Assembly (NCBI GenBank): GCA_022750435.1
Contig: JAKIVS010000005.1
Span: 1-64,000, forward strand
Direction of reading: 5' to 3'
Origin: Thermoplasmata archaeon
GTDB taxonomy: Archaea > Thermoplasmatota > Thermoplasmata > Lutacidiplasmatales > UBA184
DNA length: 64,000 nt
The notes beneath the pieces were generated by a model. That model made no database searches, had not been told where the DNA came from, and saw nothing but the letters and a program-made list of their open reading frames with translations. A program made the translations under genes and the position numbers. Of the stretch, positions 12,147 to 38,803 are shown piece after piece (within the stretch, counting starts at the first letter, position 1; each line of letters opens with the position of its first letter).

Positions 12147-12515
12147 TCACCGAACGAAGCAGACTCCGGGGAGCCCCTCGAACTCATGGGCCCCGGTCAG
12201 GAACGCGTAGTCGTTCTCCCGGGCGTACACGTACCCAAAGGCGTCGACGTACGAGAAGCGACGACCGGTCGCGCCCAGCTGGAGGCGCCGGAACCGCGCG
12301 ACCTTCGGGATCAGTTCCAGGGGGAGCTCGACCGCGGTGCCGCCGAGCTCGCGGAGGCAATGCTGCGCGAGCTCTTCGGCTCCTTGCTCGGCGAGGATGT
12401 AGAACACCTCGAGCAGATTCGCACGAGAGGTCGTCGCCGGTTCGAGGCGGAATGGGAGGTAGCGGGCGCGACCCCGGGCCATCTCGAGGATGGCGTAACT
12501 ATCGAGGAAGAACAT
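12147..12515 (-). CDS. vapC: PIN-domain ribonuclease toxin (VapC-type)
   Basis: 122 residues, normal for VapC. The acidic PIN residues are in place: D5 (MFFLDSYAIL), E35 (LLEVFYIL), D91 (YVDAFGYVYA) and D102 (ENDYAFLT). Family members cleave tRNA or other RNA when the antitoxin is lost. The start overlaps the antitoxin stop by one base (TGATG on the minus strand), so translation is coupled. One of three toxin-antitoxin pairs in the window. Confidence 0.88.
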   Translation of the reverse strand: MFFLDSYAILEMARGRARYLPFRLEPATTSRANLLEVFYILAEQGAEELAQHCLRELGGTAVELPLELIPKVARFRRLQLGATGRRFSYVDAFGYVYARENDYAFLTGAHEFEGLPGVCFVR

Positions 12516-32099: not shown

Positions 32100-32184
32100 G
32101 CGGGGATCGCCCAGCTTGGTCAAAGGCGCCAGATTCAGGGTCTGGTCTCGTAGGAGTTCGTGGGTTCAAATCCCTCTCCCCGCA
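32100..32184 (+). tRNA. tRNA-Leu (anticodon CAG)
   Basis: Class II tRNA: acceptor GCGGGGA/TCCCCGC, anticodon stem CCAGA/TCTGG with loop TTCAGGG, long variable arm (CTC/GAG around GTAG), T-loop TTCAAAT, discriminator A. The T-stem GTGGG/CCCTC has one T-T mismatch. A TATA-like TTTCATAT lies ~28 nt upstream. Its last 22 bases occur again at 36862-36883, the sign of an integration event. Confidence 0.93.
32163..32184 (+). repeat. Left copy of tRNA-Leu 3'-end repeat (attL-like)
   Basis: The last 22 bases of tRNA-Leu are repeated at 36862-36883 in the same orientation with a single mismatch (A versus C in the T-loop). This is the pattern left when an element integrates into a tRNA gene and restores it. 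Confidence 0.7.
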
Positions 32185-32256
32185 GGCGGGATTTGGACCC
32201 ATGGGCGGTTGTTCAAATCCCAGGGGATCCGGGCCCTAAGGCGGTGTGAGGCCGAG

Positions 32257-32550
32257 TCAGGCGGTTCGAGCTGGCATTCCCCGTCTTGGGTAGGCGCGCG
32301 GTCGTCGAGCGATGCGAGTGATCACGACGTTCAATCCGTCGATGCGATAGAAAACCCTGAATTCGACGAGATGAAACCGCCACTCGCCGCGGTGGCGAGG
32401 GCCTTCTCGCACCCTCAGCCACGGGTAGGAGCGGAACGGGTTCGCTAGAAGATACGGGAGCTTCTCCCGGAAGAGTCGCTGGTGCCTCCTGGGCAGGGCA
32501 AGGAACTCCCGTTCTGCGGACTGGAGGAACACAAGCCGGTACCGGGTCAA
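32257..32550 (-). CDS. relE: RelE/ParE-type toxin
   Basis: 97 residues of the RelE fold: YRLVFLQSAEREFLALPRRHQRLF, PWLRVREGPRHRGEWRFHLVEFRVFYRIDG, ITRIARRPRAY. The R/K/H cluster near the C-terminus (RIARRPRAYPRRG) may serve in mRNA cleavage or gyrase binding; the residues differ among family members. Start overlaps the antitoxin stop by four bases. Confidence 0.86.
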   Translation of the reverse strand: MTRYRLVFLQSAEREFLALPRRHQRLFREKLPYLLANPFRSYPWLRVREGPRHRGEWRFHLVEFRVFYRIDGLNVVITRIARRPRAYPRRGMPARTA

Positions 32551-32771
32551 GAGAGCCCAACCCTACGGAGAACTCGGGTTCCTGGGACGCGCTTCTCCTC
32601 CCGCCAACGCCGGTCAATCTCCCGGAAGAACTCCTCGCCGTACGTCGATTCCTCCAGCAGGCTCTCCAGAAACTCGTCAAAGCTCTCGTGCTCGCCTTTG
32701 ACGGCTTCGAGGTGGCGGCGCGTGCGCTCCGTGACCGTGATGGTCGTCGCTCGGTCCAGAGCTTCGGACAT
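32547..32771 (-). CDS. relB: RelB-type antitoxin
   Basis: 74 residues from ATG 32771. Begins with TTITVTERTRRHLEAVKGEHESFDEFLESLLEES, the pattern of small archaeal antitoxins (ribbon-helix-helix or DUF217-like), then a toxin-binding acidic/basic tail. A perfect 9-4-9 palindrome starts four bases before the ATG. The in-frame TTG at 32780 is less likely because it lies inside that palindrome. Confidence 0.85.
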   Translation of the reverse strand: MSEALDRATTITVTERTRRHLEAVKGEHESFDEFLESLLEESTYGEEFFREIDRRWREEKRVPGTRVLRRVGLS

Positions 32772-32774
32772 GCC

Positions 32775-32796
32775 AATCAATTGGCATCAATTGATT
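32775..32796. promoter_or_regulatory. Operator palindrome of the RelBE pair
   Basis: AATCAATTG, four spacer bases, then CAATTGATT. Being AT-rich and directly before the antitoxin gene it can be both TATA region and repressor site for self-control. Confidence 0.75.
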
Positions 32797-33539
32797 TGAG
32801 CCTTCCGGCCCCAGGTTCCCCCGCGTTCCATCGATTTCCCAATGGGTGGGATTCTTCCCTTGCCGCGTCCGCTGCAGATGCCCTTCGCAAGCCACAAGAA
32901 TATTCTCAGCCCAGCCCCATAGACCGCACACAGATCCTCGTCAGGCAGCGGCTTCAAATGCAAGATTCGTGGGCTCGCCCGTTCTGGGACGAGCGCCCCC
33001 TCGACTTCCGCTCCGGTGCGAATCGCCCCAAGTGCCGGACTTCGAGGGAGCCAACCGATGGGGATCGATACGGGGTGGAGCCTCCCGCGTATGGGTGCAG
33101 CGCCATCCGACTGAGAATGTACCGGGCCATTGGCTCCCCTCCCGGCGTCAGCTGGTAAACGCGGACTGGACGAGAGCGACCCGATCCGTGCCGCCGACTA
33201 TCACGAATCGATCCGGCGATCGAAAGGCAGGCCCTACGCGTGCGAGATGGATGCGGGCGTGCTTCGGTCGGCGGGGACAACTCGAACGCCATCGGGCCCG
33301 ACGGCACGGTTGAGGAGGGGGGAGGATCCGACCCATCCCGTTCAACGCGGTGCTCGCGCGAGGCACTTGAGGCCGCGAAAGCCGAGGAAGAGAAGCGCCC
33401 TTCCGACCACGGCGCCTCGGCGTATCACCGCCGGGTCGTTGACCGCGTCGTACGGAAGGACCTCCCCGAGCCCCGCCTGCGTGCCTTGAGGCAACGGGGC
33501 ACGTCGTTTTACGGGGGATCGACGTTTGGGGACGGGTCC
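32797..33539. other. 743-base stretch with no recognisable gene
   Basis: Within the island. Reading frames are open by base composition only; none has family motifs, a signal peptide or a good start. The far right end holds TTTTAC (33507-33512), the promoter of the large surface protein. Confidence 0.5.
33507..33512 (+). promoter_or_regulatory. TATA box of the large surface protein
   Basis: TTTTAC in otherwise GC-rich DNA, 28-33 nt before GTG 33540. This fixes the start of the long frame. Confidence 0.55.
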
Positions 33540-36500
33540 GTGCTTCGGCCGGGACGTTCGCCGTTAGGGTTGGTTCTGATCCTCGGCGTCCTCGTCGCGT
33601 CGCCCGCCAGTCTTCTTGCCGGCCACGCGTCCCCGGCGGGCTCGCACGGCTCCCGAACGGCGGCCGGAGGCGAACGCGCGACCGCCCCCTTCACCGCTTC
33701 GGCGGCGCAGCTCCGTTCGTCGCCGGCCCTCCCTCCGACCGGGAATGCCTCGAACACGCTCGTCGGGGGGATCGCCTGGTACGGGAATCGACCGACGCTG
33801 CCGTTCGCGAGTCCCCCCATCTTCGCCCCGTTCGCCTCGATTCAGGCGGCCGTGTACGACGCGGCGAACCAGGCGATCTACTTCTCCGGCCTTCGGACCG
33901 ACGAGGTCGGTGTGCTGAACGCCACGACCCTCGCCCCGATCGCGACGATTTCGGGCTCGGGAGGGGTGGCGATGGCGTTGGATGCCCCCGCGCAACGCCT
34001 GTTCGTCGCGGGATATTGGAACGACACCCTAGCCGTGATCAACTGCAGCGACAATCGATTGATGGCGACCCTGGCCCTCCCATCGAACCCGGAATTTGTC
34101 GCCCTCGGCCCGCACGACCGGACAGCGTACGTGCCGAACGGCGACGGCGTCTCGATCGTCAACACGTCGACCCTCCAACTCGATTCGACCCTGCAAGGGT
34201 CCGGGTTCGGACTTCTGACCGGCGCCGCCTACGACCCGCAGGACGGCCTCCTCTTCGTCTCGAACACGTCGGACGGGGTCGCGCCGATCAACGTGACCAC
34301 CGACACGTGGGCTGGCGGGAACACCACGGTCGTGAGCCAGGGGCAGTTCGGCAGCCTTTGGTTCGACCCGCTGAGCGGTTCCCTCTACCTGTCGGACAAC
34401 TTTTCGAGTACGGTGTGGATCGTCAACGTCAGCGCTGGGGGGAACATCACTAGCCTCCCGCTGGCGGCCAATGGGGTGGCAGGGCTTGGCTGGGACCCCC
34501 AGACCCGTACGGTGTTCTTGCCGCAAATGTTCGGCACGACCGTCCTCCTACTCAACGCGTCCACGGGCGCGGAGGACGCTCGCTCGGTCCCCGTGGGCGT
34601 GGGCTCGTCCGTGGCGGTCTTCGACCCGGCCCTCCGACAGATGGCGGTCTTCAACGTCGTGAGCAGCAACGTGACCCTCATCGACCCGTCGAACCTCACG
34701 GTGACCGCGACCGTCGACTTGAGCCCGCAGTTCGGCGACGGGGTTGCGGTACCGGGTTCGTCTTGGCTCGTACTGGCCGACCGCAACGGAAATGCACTCT
34801 ACGCGTACAACCGCTCCGACGGACAGTTCCTGCCGGCCACTCTCCCGGTCGGGGACAATCCACGCAACCTCGTGTACGACCCGGCGAGCAACGAAGTGTT
34901 CTCGGCGAGCGCGTCGGACGGGACCGTGTCCGGAACGTACGTCGGAAACTGGACCCCTGGCGGCCCTCCGACCCCCGTCGGAGCGGACCCCGACGGACTC
35001 GCGCTGGGCCCGAACGGAACTCTCCTGGCGGTCAGTTGCCTCTCCGGCACCCTCGAGGGACTTTCCCGCAACGGCGCTCCGCTGCCGAACGCTTCCATCG
35101 ACCTCGGAGGATGTCCGGTCGCGGTCTCCGTCGACTTGGCGACGGCCACGGCCTACGTCGCGAATGCCGCTGACGACTCCGTGTCGGTCGTCAATCTGTC
35201 GACGTACCGGACGGTCGGAACGCCGTGGGCTCTGGCCGGCCCGCCCTCAGCACTCCTGTTCGACCCATCGACCGGGGACCTGTTCGTCGGGTACTCGGGC
35301 CGGGGGAGCCTGACCATCCTAAGCCCGACGGGAATGGACACCGCGACCATCCACATGTCGTTGTACGACTCGACCCGGTCGGTCTCCTACGACCCGCTTA
35401 CGGGGCTGGTCTACGTCACCAACGACAGCGGGATCGCGGTCCTCCAGAACACCACGGAGGTGGCGGGGGTCCCGGTCCGTGGGTCGCTCGCCGAGAACGC
35501 GAGCGGGTATCGCGTGATTCCGGGACCCTCGGGTTCTCCGGCGTACCTCACGAGTGGTCTCGCGGGAATCGAGTTCCTCTCGAACGCGCCCGAGATTGCG
35601 CCGTTGCAGGCCGAACCCTCTACCACCCTCGCTGGACGGACGGTTCTCGTCACGACCGTCCCGCTCGGCCCGGAGACGGCGCTACGCTACACCTACTCGG
35701 GCCTGCCCCCAGGCTGCCGGTCCGCCGACCTCCCGGCGTTGTCGTGCCGGCCTTTGGCGAACGGAATGTTCTCGATCTCGGTCAACGCGTCCGACGGAGG
35801 GGGCAATTGGGTACGGAGCTCGACGCAGCTGACCGTCATCGCCGCGAACCTTTCGGGGGTGGCGATTGCGGTATCCGCGCCGGTCGTGGATGTCGGCCAG
35901 ACGGTGACTCTCGCGTCGACGGTGAAGGGCGTGGGACCCAATGAGAGCTTCGAGTACGCGGGGCTCCCTTCGGGCTGCGGCACCGCGAACGTAAGCTCCT
36001 TGGTGTGTCGACCGACCGCCCCCGGGACGTCGCTCATTACCGTCTCTGTATCGGACGCGTTCGGTCAGCAGGCTAACGGGAGCACTGTACTCGAGGTCTT
36101 CCCGCCCCCGCGGATCCAGGGGTTCGGCGCGTTCCCGCCCACGACTTCGGTGGGCGGAACGGTGGAGTTCCTGCTCGCGGTGAGCGGCGGTGCGCCGGGA
36201 ACTCCGCTCCTCTCGGTGATTGGCCTTCCCGCCGGGTGCGCCCCGCCCTCCGCCGAGCTGTGGAGTTGCGAGCCGGACGTGGCCGGAACGTTCCGGGTGT
36301 CCGCGACGGTCGAAGATTCGACGGGGGCGAACGCGACCGCGGGGACGACGCTCACTGTCGGACCGTCTGCCGCAGCCCCGTTGCCTCCCACGATCCTGAA
36401 TGCGTTTGCCGCGCCTGACGACATCCCCGTCGGGGGAACCGTTACGATTGCGGTCGTCGCAGAGGGCGGGGCGACGCCCCTGCACTACTCATACTCAGGA

Positions 36501-36812
36501 CTTCCGCCGGGATGCGCCTCCACGAACTCCAGCGTCCTCTCATGCCAGCCCGCGGCCAACGGCACATTCGCCGTGAACGCGACGGTGTCGGACAGCCTAG
36601 GGCGCTCTGCTTCTGCGCTCGTCTCCGTGGTCGTCAGACCCCCCGTGGCGACCCCTCCCCCCGGCGGGACAGTCAGCCCGCCGGTTGCGTTCATCGAGCT
36701 CGGCGTCGTAGCGACCGCCGCCGGGGGACTCGCTGGCGCGACTGCGGCAGCCATCGTTGTCGCGTTGGTGCCGAGGACCAAGGATCGCCCATTGCGTGGT
36801 TCGAATCCGTAG
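33540..36812 (+). CDS. Very large surface protein: YVTN beta-propellers plus Cys-containing Ig-like repeats
   Basis: 1090 residues from GTG 33540. Signal peptide (SPLGLVLILGVLVASPASLLA), about 700 residues of seven-bladed YVTN-type propeller repeats (LFVAGYWNDTLAVINCSDNRLMATLAL; GLLFVSNTSDGVAPINVTT; AYVANAADDSVSVVNLSTYRTVG), then four copies of an ~90-residue Ig-like repeat marked by YSGLPPGCxxxxxxxLxCxPxxxG (e.g. residues ~730, ~830, ~920, ~1010), a membrane helix (ELGVVATAAGGLAGATAAAIVVALV) and RTKDRP. Very many N-x-S/T sequons. The paired cysteine in each Ig unit suggests one disulfide per domain. A cell-surface adhesin or binding protein is likely. Downstream is a palindrome holding the right att repeat. 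Confidence 0.85.
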   Translation: MLRPGRSPLGLVLILGVLVASPASLLAGHASPAGSHGSRTAAGGERATAPFTASAAQLRSSPALPPTGNASNTLVGGIAWYGNRPTLPFASPPIFAPFASIQAAVYDAANQAIYFSGLRTDEVGVLNATTLAPIATISGSGGVAMALDAPAQRLFVAGYWNDTLAVINCSDNRLMATLALPSNPEFVALGPHDRTAYVPNGDGVSIVNTSTLQLDSTLQGSGFGLLTGAAYDPQDGLLFVSNTSDGVAPINVTTDTWAGGNTTVVSQGQFGSLWFDPLSGSLYLSDNFSSTVWIVNVSAGGNITSLPLAANGVAGLGWDPQTRTVFLPQMFGTTVLLLNASTGAEDARSVPVGVGSSVAVFDPALRQMAVFNVVSSNVTLIDPSNLTVTATVDLSPQFGDGVAVPGSSWLVLADRNGNALYAYNRSDGQFLPATLPVGDNPRNLVYDPASNEVFSASASDGTVSGTYVGNWTPGGPPTPVGADPDGLALGPNGTLLAVSCLSGTLEGLSRNGAPLPNASIDLGGCPVAVSVDLATATAYVANAADDSVSVVNLSTYRTVGTPWALAGPPSALLFDPSTGDLFVGYSGRGSLTILSPTGMDTATIHMSLYDSTRSVSYDPLTGLVYVTNDSGIAVLQNTTEVAGVPVRGSLAENASGYRVIPGPSGSPAYLTSGLAGIEFLSNAPEIAPLQAEPSTTLAGRTVLVTTVPLGPETALRYTYSGLPPGCRSADLPALSCRPLANGMFSISVNASDGGGNWVRSSTQLTVIAANLSGVAIAVSAPVVDVGQTVTLASTVKGVGPNESFEYAGLPSGCGTANVSSLVCRPTAPGTSLITVSVSDAFGQQANGSTVLEVFPPPRIQGFGAFPPTTSVGGTVEFLLAVSGGAPGTPLLSVIGLPAGCAPPSAELWSCEPDVAGTFRVSATVEDSTGANATAGTTLTVGPSAAAPLPPTILNAFAAPDDIPVGGTVTIAVVAEGGATPLHYSYSGLPPGCASTNSSVLSCQPAANGTFAVNATVSDSLGRSASALVSVVVRPPVATPPPGGTVSPPVAFIELGVVATAAGGLAGATAAAIVVALVPRTKDRPLRGSNP

Positions 36813-36842
36813 AGCGACCGACCTCTTGCCCACGTCCCATGT

Positions 36843-36873
36843 GGGAGTTGAACCGCCGGGCGGTTCAACTCCC
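36843..36873. repeat. Perfect 15-1-15 palindrome containing part of the right att repeat
   Basis: Left arm GGGAGTTGAACCGCC, single G, right arm its reverse complement. It overlaps the first half of the tRNA-Leu 3' repeat (36862-36883) and lies 31 bases past the surface protein stop. It could end transcription of that gene, or be a recombination site. Confidence 0.7.
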
Positions 36874-36883
36874 TCTCCCCGCA
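36862..36883 (+). repeat. Right copy of the tRNA-Leu 3'-end repeat (attR-like)
   Basis: Matches the last 22 bases of tRNA-Leu except one base. It keeps the same odd T64 as the tRNA, so it is derived from this tRNA gene and not from a general T-arm. Confidence 0.65.
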
Positions 36884-37324
36884 CGGAGCTCACTCAAGAA
36901 TCCTCGTCGCGTCGCGGAATGTGCTGGAACCGTATCCGGCTCGGGCACCCTTCGACGCACCCCCCCCGACCGGCCAGCTTCCCGCAAATCGGGCCTCGGC
37001 CAGAGCCGCTTTTTCGCACCACACCGTTGGTTCCCTCGGAGTTCCACTGAGCGATGACCCCTCTTGAGTGGGCATCGCGCGACGCTCGGAAGCTCACCCG
37101 TCCGCTCGTCTTCCCGGACGCGAACGTTGCCGGTCGCCGGACCCGCCCGGGCGACGGAGAACACCTGCCGGTCGGTCCAACTGGACCGTTGGGGTGTGAC
37201 GGGAGCGGGGATGAGCCATGGGTCGTCGTTCCGGTCGTTTCGCAAAGACCCCAGCCACCCGGAGTGCAGGTCGGCGCCCGCGCGAGGGTGTGGAGCCCGG
37301 ATCGGCAACTCGGTGGATGCGCGG
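36884..37324. other. 440-base stretch with no recognisable gene
   Basis: Several overlapping frames are open, all arginine- or proline-rich and without motifs. No tRNA or hairpin stronger than the palindrome to its left was found. It may be scar DNA at the edge of the island. Confidence 0.4.
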
Positions 37325-38130: not shown

Positions 38131-38159
38131 GTGTTTAATAAACATGTTGGGATAAACAC
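38131..38159. promoter_or_regulatory. Operator/promoter of the second VapBC pair
   Basis: GTGTTTA (38131-38137) and TAAACAC (38153-38159) face each other; a second inner GTTTA-A-TAAAC palindrome is at 38132-38142. The AT-rich part is ~22-30 nt before the antitoxin ATG. Confidence 0.6.
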
Positions 38160-38163
38160 ACTC

Positions 38164-38412
38164 ATGTCAGTGAAGACCGTGACGTTGTCCGAGGACGCGT
38201 ACCTTGCCCTCGCGGCGCGCAAGCGGGCGGGCGAGAGCTTCACCGAGGTGGTGAGGCGACTCACGTCGACCGAGCGCTCTCTCCAGGAGTTTGTCGGAGC
38301 TTGGGAGCAAGTCCCCCCCGAGAAACTGGCTCGGCTCGAGGAATGGATCGCACACAGCGACGAATCTTCCCAGGCCGAGATGCTCCGTCTCGGACGCCGA
38401 CGCGGGAAGTGA
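38164..38412 (+). CDS. vapB: VapB-type antitoxin
   Basis: 82 residues, DUF217/VapB family: MSVKTVTLSEDAYLALAARKRAGESFTEVVRRLTS, then an acidic, helical tail that would bind the PIN toxin. The toxin ATG is four bases past its stop. ATG 38164 rather than the in-frame codon at 38131, which lies in the operator. Confidence 0.86.
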   Translation: MSVKTVTLSEDAYLALAARKRAGESFTEVVRRLTSTERSLQEFVGAWEQVPPEKLARLEEWIAHSDESSQAEMLRLGRRRGK

Positions 38413-38416
38413 CGCC

Positions 38417-38803
38417 ATGGCGAGTCTCGACTCCACGTTCCTGATCGACCTCCTTCGGGGTGTCCCCGCGGCGGTCGACCGACTGGAGCGCCTCGAAAAG
38501 CGCCGGGAACCCCGTTGCGTCACGCCCCCGGCCGCCACCGAGGTCATGGTGGGCGCCTGCGCTTTCGGCGGGAGCTCGCTTCGCGCGGCGGAGGACCTGA
38601 TCCGGTCTCTCCAGTGGCTCGAGTTCGACTGGGAATCCTGTCGCCTCGCGGGACGGATTGAAGCCGACCTGATCGCGCGCGGCGAGCCGATGAGTGCCGC
38701 CGACCTGTTCATCGCGGCCGTGAGCCTTCGGCACGGGCAGCGACTCCTCACGCGGGACCGCGGGTTCGCTCGCGTCCCCGGGCTGAAGGTCGAAACGTAC
38801 TGA
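38417..38803 (+). CDS. vapC: VapC-type PIN-domain ribonuclease toxin
   Basis: 128 residues. PIN acidic residues: D5 (SLDSTFLIDLL), E43 (ATEVMVGA), D96 (SAADLFIAAVS) and D114 (LLTRDRGFARVPGL). Would cleave tRNA or mRNA under stress. Co-transcribed with the antitoxin. Confidence 0.9.
   Translation: MASLDSTFLIDLLRGVPAAVDRLERLEKRREPRCVTPPAATEVMVGACAFGGSSLRAAEDLIRSLQWLEFDWESCRLAGRIEADLIARGEPMSAADLFIAAVSLRHGQRLLTRDRGFARVPGLKVETY

Follow-up and report, generated by a model that had tools for sequence, protein, structure and literature searches.

A probable family of integrase-less mobile cassettes behind tRNA genes in Lutacidiplasma-like archaea

The window, a stretch of 64,000 nucleotides of Thermoplasmata DNA, carries an intact tRNA-Leu(CAG) gene, called by ARAGORN, which serves as the anchor of an island and lies in a gene order, lrp-aldolase-tRNA-Leu, that is kept across the genus. 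Behind this gene follow a toxin-antitoxin pair, approximately 0.76 kb without clear genes and the gene of a large surface protein (Table 1), as a first-pass annotation made from the sequence had described. In agreement with the same annotation, the 3' end of the tRNA gene, GGTTCAAATCCCTCTCCCCGCA (32163-32184), was found to recur as GGTTCAACTCCCTCTCCCCGCA at 36862-36883 with one mismatch (21 of 22 bases identical). The repeat did not arise by chance, because the 14-mer TCCCTCTCCCCGCA has exact matches at the two repeat sites only in the 1.92-Mb genome.

The two ends of the island also carry inverted copies of the T-arm. An imperfect T-arm palindrome (32189-32221) stands directly 3' of tRNA-Leu, and at the right end a 15-bp inverted repeat (36843-36857 and 36859-36873, GGGAGTTGAACCGCC-G-GGCGGTTCAACTCCC) has the copy of the tRNA end as one of its arms. 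This palindrome of 36843-36873 is unique in the window's own genome, and the strict form is absent from that genome outside the island. T-arm-like 11-mers number 8 in the window against 2.4 expected, and they occur in both orientations and at both island ends. An exact T-arm 11-mer, GGTTCGAATCC, is found at 36798-36808 inside the final codons of the surface-protein gene (RGSNP stop), either by chance or as the remnant of an older site.

Table 1. Features of the tRNA-Leu(CAG) locus in the window
Feature	Position	Strand	Remark
tRNA-Leu(CAG)	32100-32184	+	intact anchor gene
T-arm 11-mer of tRNA, GGTTCAAATCC	32163-32173	+	presumed right-facing half-site
Acceptor stem 3' strand, CTCTCCCCGCA	32174-32184	+	inferred exchange region; right copies hold element-specific alleles up to here
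Inverted T-arm, GGATTTGGACC, left-end half-site	32189-32199	-	15 nt after tRNA T-arm
Left-end T-arm, GGTTGTTCAAATCCC, with 3-nt insertion	32207-32221	+	7 nt after inverted T-arm
RelE/ParE-superfamily toxin	32257-32550	-	PF05016; homologous pairs in other cassettes
VapB-like antitoxin	32547-32780	-	PF02697
Surface-protein block, including right repeat	33253-36883	+	86% nucleotide identity to first tRNA-Leu cassette of G041
Beta-propeller/PKD surface protein, 1090 aa	33540-36812	+	84% identical in G041
Inverted T-arm of right-end site, GGAGTTGAACC	36844-36854	-	
Self-complementary spacer, GCCGGGC, 7 nt	36855-36861		
T-arm copy, GGTTCAACTCC	36862-36872	+	
Displaced acceptor 3' strand, CTCTCCCCGCA	36873-36883	+	cassette end
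VapBC pair of conserved right flank	38131-38803	+	outside cassette; also downstream of tRNA-Leu in G066, G068

Comparisons were made with 78 genomes of the genus, an uncultured, Lutacidiplasma-like group of acid-soil Thermoplasmata; all are based on MAGs at approximately 80% identity, so that single events are blurred by divergence between species. The window island is a composite of a toxin-antitoxin block and a surface-protein block. In genome G041, the surface-protein block stands behind the same tRNA-Leu and closes with the same terminal repeat, and the toxin block is missing; the toxin pair therefore does not form one unit with the surface gene, contrary to the earlier proposal of a single island that brought both together. 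Both flanks are common to G000, G066 and G068, and the cassettes between them differ. In G068, the sequence reads as a toxin-pair unit directly after tRNA-Leu, followed by two degraded sites. Each relative examined differs after tRNA-Leu, and an exact empty site, in which this gene would be joined directly to the sequence at 36884, the proof that the annotation had proposed, was not found among them; the shared flanks with their different contents are the nearest substitute. Neither a circular form nor a product of excision was seen. Orthologues of the surface gene in G024 and G066 sit elsewhere, on contigs that show neither a tRNA nor a palindrome in their vicinity, and by them transfer is neither proven nor excluded.

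The arrangement is not peculiar to the window. Same-strand copies of the tRNA-Leu end lie 0.7-10 kb downstream of tRNA-Leu in several of the 78 genomes (G041, with three in a row, G061, G064, G066, G070, G078, G086 and others), and this recurrence, along with the common terminal repeat of the G041 block, bears out the footprint of tRNA-site integration that had been read into the window. Downstream same-strand copies also accompany an intron-bearing tRNA-Met(CAT), and three tandem copies follow tRNA-Val(TAC) in G042. At all three tRNA genes the displaced ends, often in tandem, are preceded by the same 11-7-11 design, and the same-strand order is kept in every array. At some loci a complete second tRNA-Leu or tRNA-Met lies 2.4-14 kb after the first, beside partial copies (L104 of G064, 2256-2340 and 12245-12331; L243 of G009; L256 of G053); the more distant tRNA-Leu end copy of G064 is part of such a complete second gene. 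Elsewhere, T-arm palindromes are followed by other acceptor-like ends, CCTCGGGCCCG and ATGCCCCGC (L308, G075:C41, at 3609 and 5535; L314, G060:C1, at 4418), which suggests that additional tRNA genes may act as anchors.

The right-end site consists, in order, of an inverted T-arm (11), 7 bp, a T-arm (11) and a copy of the acceptor 3' strand (11 nt); its consensus is GGATTTGAACC-N7-GGTTCRAATMC, after which comes the acceptor 3' strand of whichever tRNA serves as anchor. In 29 of 35 partial Leu/Met copies, and in none of 81 full tRNA genes, a gap of exactly 7 nt separates an inverted T-arm from the T-arm behind it. Over the loci, 38 sites have a spacer of 7 and any other spacing accounts for at most 5 (5 at spacer 6), and reversed sequences, which served as a control, yielded none; a peak at spacer 14 was rejected as an artefact of intact tRNA-Leu genes. 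The palindrome pattern occurs in 25 of the 78 genus genomes and the control pattern in none of them. Among 84,980 species genomes, the strict palindrome was found in 17 stretches, 13 of them from Thermoplasmata MAGs of this lineage, and the matches include Candidatus Lutacidiplasma silvani. Integrases, mobile elements and toxins are not mentioned in the paper that named the order (PMC9287336). The annotation had taken a plain displaced fragment as the mark of the island, and the repeat does exist, but the diagnostic feature is the conserved palindromic T-arm site.

The left ends are variable. Behind the tRNA T-arm, at a spacing of 14, 15 or 17 nt, an inverted T-arm is often present, an arrangement that recurs in relatives, and a clear inverted T-arm is missing in many units. 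Degraded sites were seen in G068, G061 and G064, and part of the units may be old and no longer mobile. A left-end motif close to GATTTCTCGCCGAGAA recurs after the acceptor end in several tRNA-Met cassettes (L245, L246, L247, L254, L257). The G086 units, on three contigs (L108-L110), encode related proteins that are small, membrane-like and outside any Pfam family, and the left ends of these units share GAGCGGATTTGAACCCATGGG. At L245 (G043), a unit of only 92 bp (1901-1992) lies between tRNA-Met and the next palindromic copy; its size leaves no room for a gene, and it is either a minimal or a deleted cassette.

The units are mostly 0.7-5 kb in size and most have a G+C content of 59-64%, compared with 71% in the window outside the island. 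A RelE/ParE-type toxin with a VapB-like antitoxin was present in 18 of 33 complete units, a set that includes two full tRNA duplications without a palindrome, and some units of 0.7 kb consist of the toxin pair alone. The toxin HMM gave 20 matches in 111 kb of cassettes and none in 326 kb of control loci, a contrast that is inflated because the model was trained on the cassettes. Other cargo identified with Pfam includes glyoxalase, metallo-beta-lactamase-fold, alcohol dehydrogenase, RibD_C, AlkZ-like, HxlR, GNAT and AHSA1 proteins, as well as large surface proteins with beta-propellers.

The segment 32185-36883 is thus probably a member of a family of mobile cassettes without integrases, which stand singly or in tandem behind the 3' ends of tRNA-Leu(CAG), tRNA-Met(CAT) and tRNA-Val(TAC) in this genus. 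We infer that these cassettes are excised and integrated by a tyrosine recombinase, which would bind T-arm half-sites both in the tRNA gene and in a cassette circle and exchange strands within the acceptor 3' strand. The incoming cassette DNA would regenerate the tRNA, the old 3' end would be displaced to the far side, behind the palindrome, and arrays would grow by repeated insertion. At the position where the tRNA reads TTCAAATCC, displaced copies in tRNA-Met arrays repeatedly read TTCGAATAC; the displaced copy of the window carries TTCAAC. From these alleles, exchange would take place 3' of the T-arm, within the acceptor 3' strand. Toxin-antitoxin pairs, present in about half of the cassettes, might select against cassette loss. 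The self-complementary spacer, a feature that a double-stranded recombinase site does not need, counts against this mechanism.

The recombinase would be supplied in trans, by host XerA or by a mobile helper. A tyrosine recombinase HMM that recovered 26 integrases in control loci had no match in 43 cassettes (111 kb), and dependence on a recombinase in trans fits the lack of an integrase in any unit. This part of the annotation's proposal of a decayed or helper-dependent element stands, whereas the frame of a single decayed island is wrong for cassettes that recur at three tRNA genes, often in tandem. That each unit is an ordinary tRNA-integrated element whose own integrase has decayed, with the palindrome as an incidental part of attP, is unlikely. 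The classical displaced tRNA end is present, and the genus does have classical integrase elements, one at tRNA-Gln with an exact 24-nt copy and one at the tRNA used by the cassettes, where a gene for a 489-aa non-XerA tyrosine integrase begins 42 bp after tRNA-Leu(CAG) with no T-arm palindrome (L304, G053:C40, 3095-4692). Yet T-arm palindromes are absent from the integrase neighbourhoods in the genus, no detectable integrase remnant was found in any of the 43 cassettes, including the units reduced to a toxin pair, and one site design is common to the three anchors.

Host XerA is the leading candidate for the recombinase and a mobile helper the alternative. G041, G043, G061, G075 and G078 each have a single PF00589 gene; that of G041, which lies away from the array, is an archaeal XerA, as is the best match in G000. 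Archaeal dif has an 11-6-11 design, stem-loop att sites are weakly bound by PaXerA, and integration in vitro has been obtained with TaXerA (PMC8371274). In light of those findings and of the single XerA, its action in trans appears plausible, but the cassette site, with an 11-7-11 design and the T-arm sequence, differs from dif in both spacing and sequence, which leaves XerA a candidate. SSV-type integrases (Phage_integr_3, of the kind that integration splits) had no match above the cut-off in 15 genomes. As for a helper virus, a search of IMG/VR for these sites returned no palindromes, its sole tRNA-end match being a phage that brings a tRNA and an integrase of its own and has no T-arm palindrome; gaps in the MAGs could have hidden a helper.

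The palindromes could alternatively be extruded as attC-like hairpins for integron-like, single-strand recombination, with the tRNA end in the role of attI, an explanation considered improbable. The sites are near-perfect hairpins (z -6.6 for the window site folded as DNA), the spacer also pairs, one of its pairs changes on both sides, and the tandem, toxin-pair-rich arrays resemble those of integrons, in which toxin-antitoxin proteins make up 10.5% of annotated archaeal cassette proteins (PMC9668308). However, the spacer varies by anchor, so that the covariation, mostly of the outer pair (CG 18, GC 9), tracks anchor type and is modest overall and against shuffles, and in folding the tRNA-Met site of G064 does not surpass shuffled sequences (z -1.2). 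Furthermore, the arrays contain no IntI-like gene, and the sites, judged by their consensus, are not of the attC kind with a GTTRRRY-type core and L/R boxes.

Two other explanations are very unlikely. A transposon (casposon-like or IS200/605-like) that is bounded by palindromes and has duplicated the tRNA end as its target site would suit the perfect 14-nt duplication at the tRNA-Leu end with flanking palindromes, which resembles a casposon target duplication at tRNA-Leu, but Y1 transposases were detected in the controls and in none of 12 array genomes, Cas1 and PolB domains were absent among the cassette proteins scanned with Pfam, and the T-arm and acceptor end are the target in every case, at each of the three tRNAs. 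A scheme without mobility, in which segmental duplication or homologous recombination scattered the tRNA ends and genes were gained between the fragments in the ordinary way, would suit the complete duplicated tRNA genes of G064, G009 and G053, but duplication of a tRNA does not produce an inverted T-arm at a fixed 7-nt spacing, and the cassette contents are unrelated and mostly low in G+C, in arrays that all hold to the same strand.

Modular gene capture is usually exemplified by integrons, and the mobile cassettes behind tRNA genes look like a gene-capture system independent of them. One lineage of common soil archaea appears to hold an independent, tRNA-anchored array system with a simple, readable site, the signature of which delimits islands and toxin-antitoxin cargo that integrase-based island finders miss. 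If host XerA drives the capture, no dedicated integrase would be needed for any of a genome's tRNAs to become a point of capture. The fuller proposal, that these are a third cassette-capture platform apart from integrons and dif modules, with tRNA genes as landing sites and T-arm palindromes recombined by host XerA, a housekeeping resolvase of chromosome dimers that would then power capture at several tRNA genes, is tentative and on balance doubtful.

Several known systems share parts of this organization. Islander-type tRNA genomic or accretion islands likewise have an intact tRNA at one end, a displaced 3' fragment in direct orientation at the other, and tandem insertions; the cassettes differ in having no integrase, in their size range, given above, and in that almost all displaced ends have the conserved palindromic T-arm site in front of them, at three tRNAs. 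The pdif modules of Acinetobacter are small and recombinase-free, hold toxin-antitoxin as well as adaptive genes flanked by sites with two inverted arms of 11 bp, and are presumed to use host Xer (PMC6449649). The cassettes have the same small size, toxin-antitoxin cargo, lack of an own recombinase and paired 11-bp inverted arms, whereas their spacer is 7 and not 6, their arms are T-arm sequence, and they are chromosomal and tRNA-anchored with all sites in one orientation. Integron arrays, including those of archaea (PMC9668308), are also tandem, palindrome-closed, rich in toxin-antitoxin pairs and anchored at one fixed point. In contrast, the cassettes have neither IntI nor the attC core, the flank beside the first cassette is lrp-aldolase with no intI, the anchor is a tRNA gene, and the sites are archaeal and lineage-specific. 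Tycheposons of Prochlorococcus are tRNA-anchored cargo islands, some without machinery of their own, but the cassette site is of a different design and the typical replication and packaging genes were not seen in the cassettes. Casposons are known to duplicate a tRNA-Leu 3' end in an archaeon, and differ from the cassettes in that the latter have palindromic T-arm sites and no Cas1 or PolB among their scanned proteins. The cassettes therefore have ends like those of a tRNA-targeted island, recombinase-free toxin-antitoxin cargo like that of pdif modules and palindrome-closed arrays like those of an integron, and of each of these systems they lack a defining feature that was looked for; they are filed, as a variant, under tRNA-anchored integrative elements.
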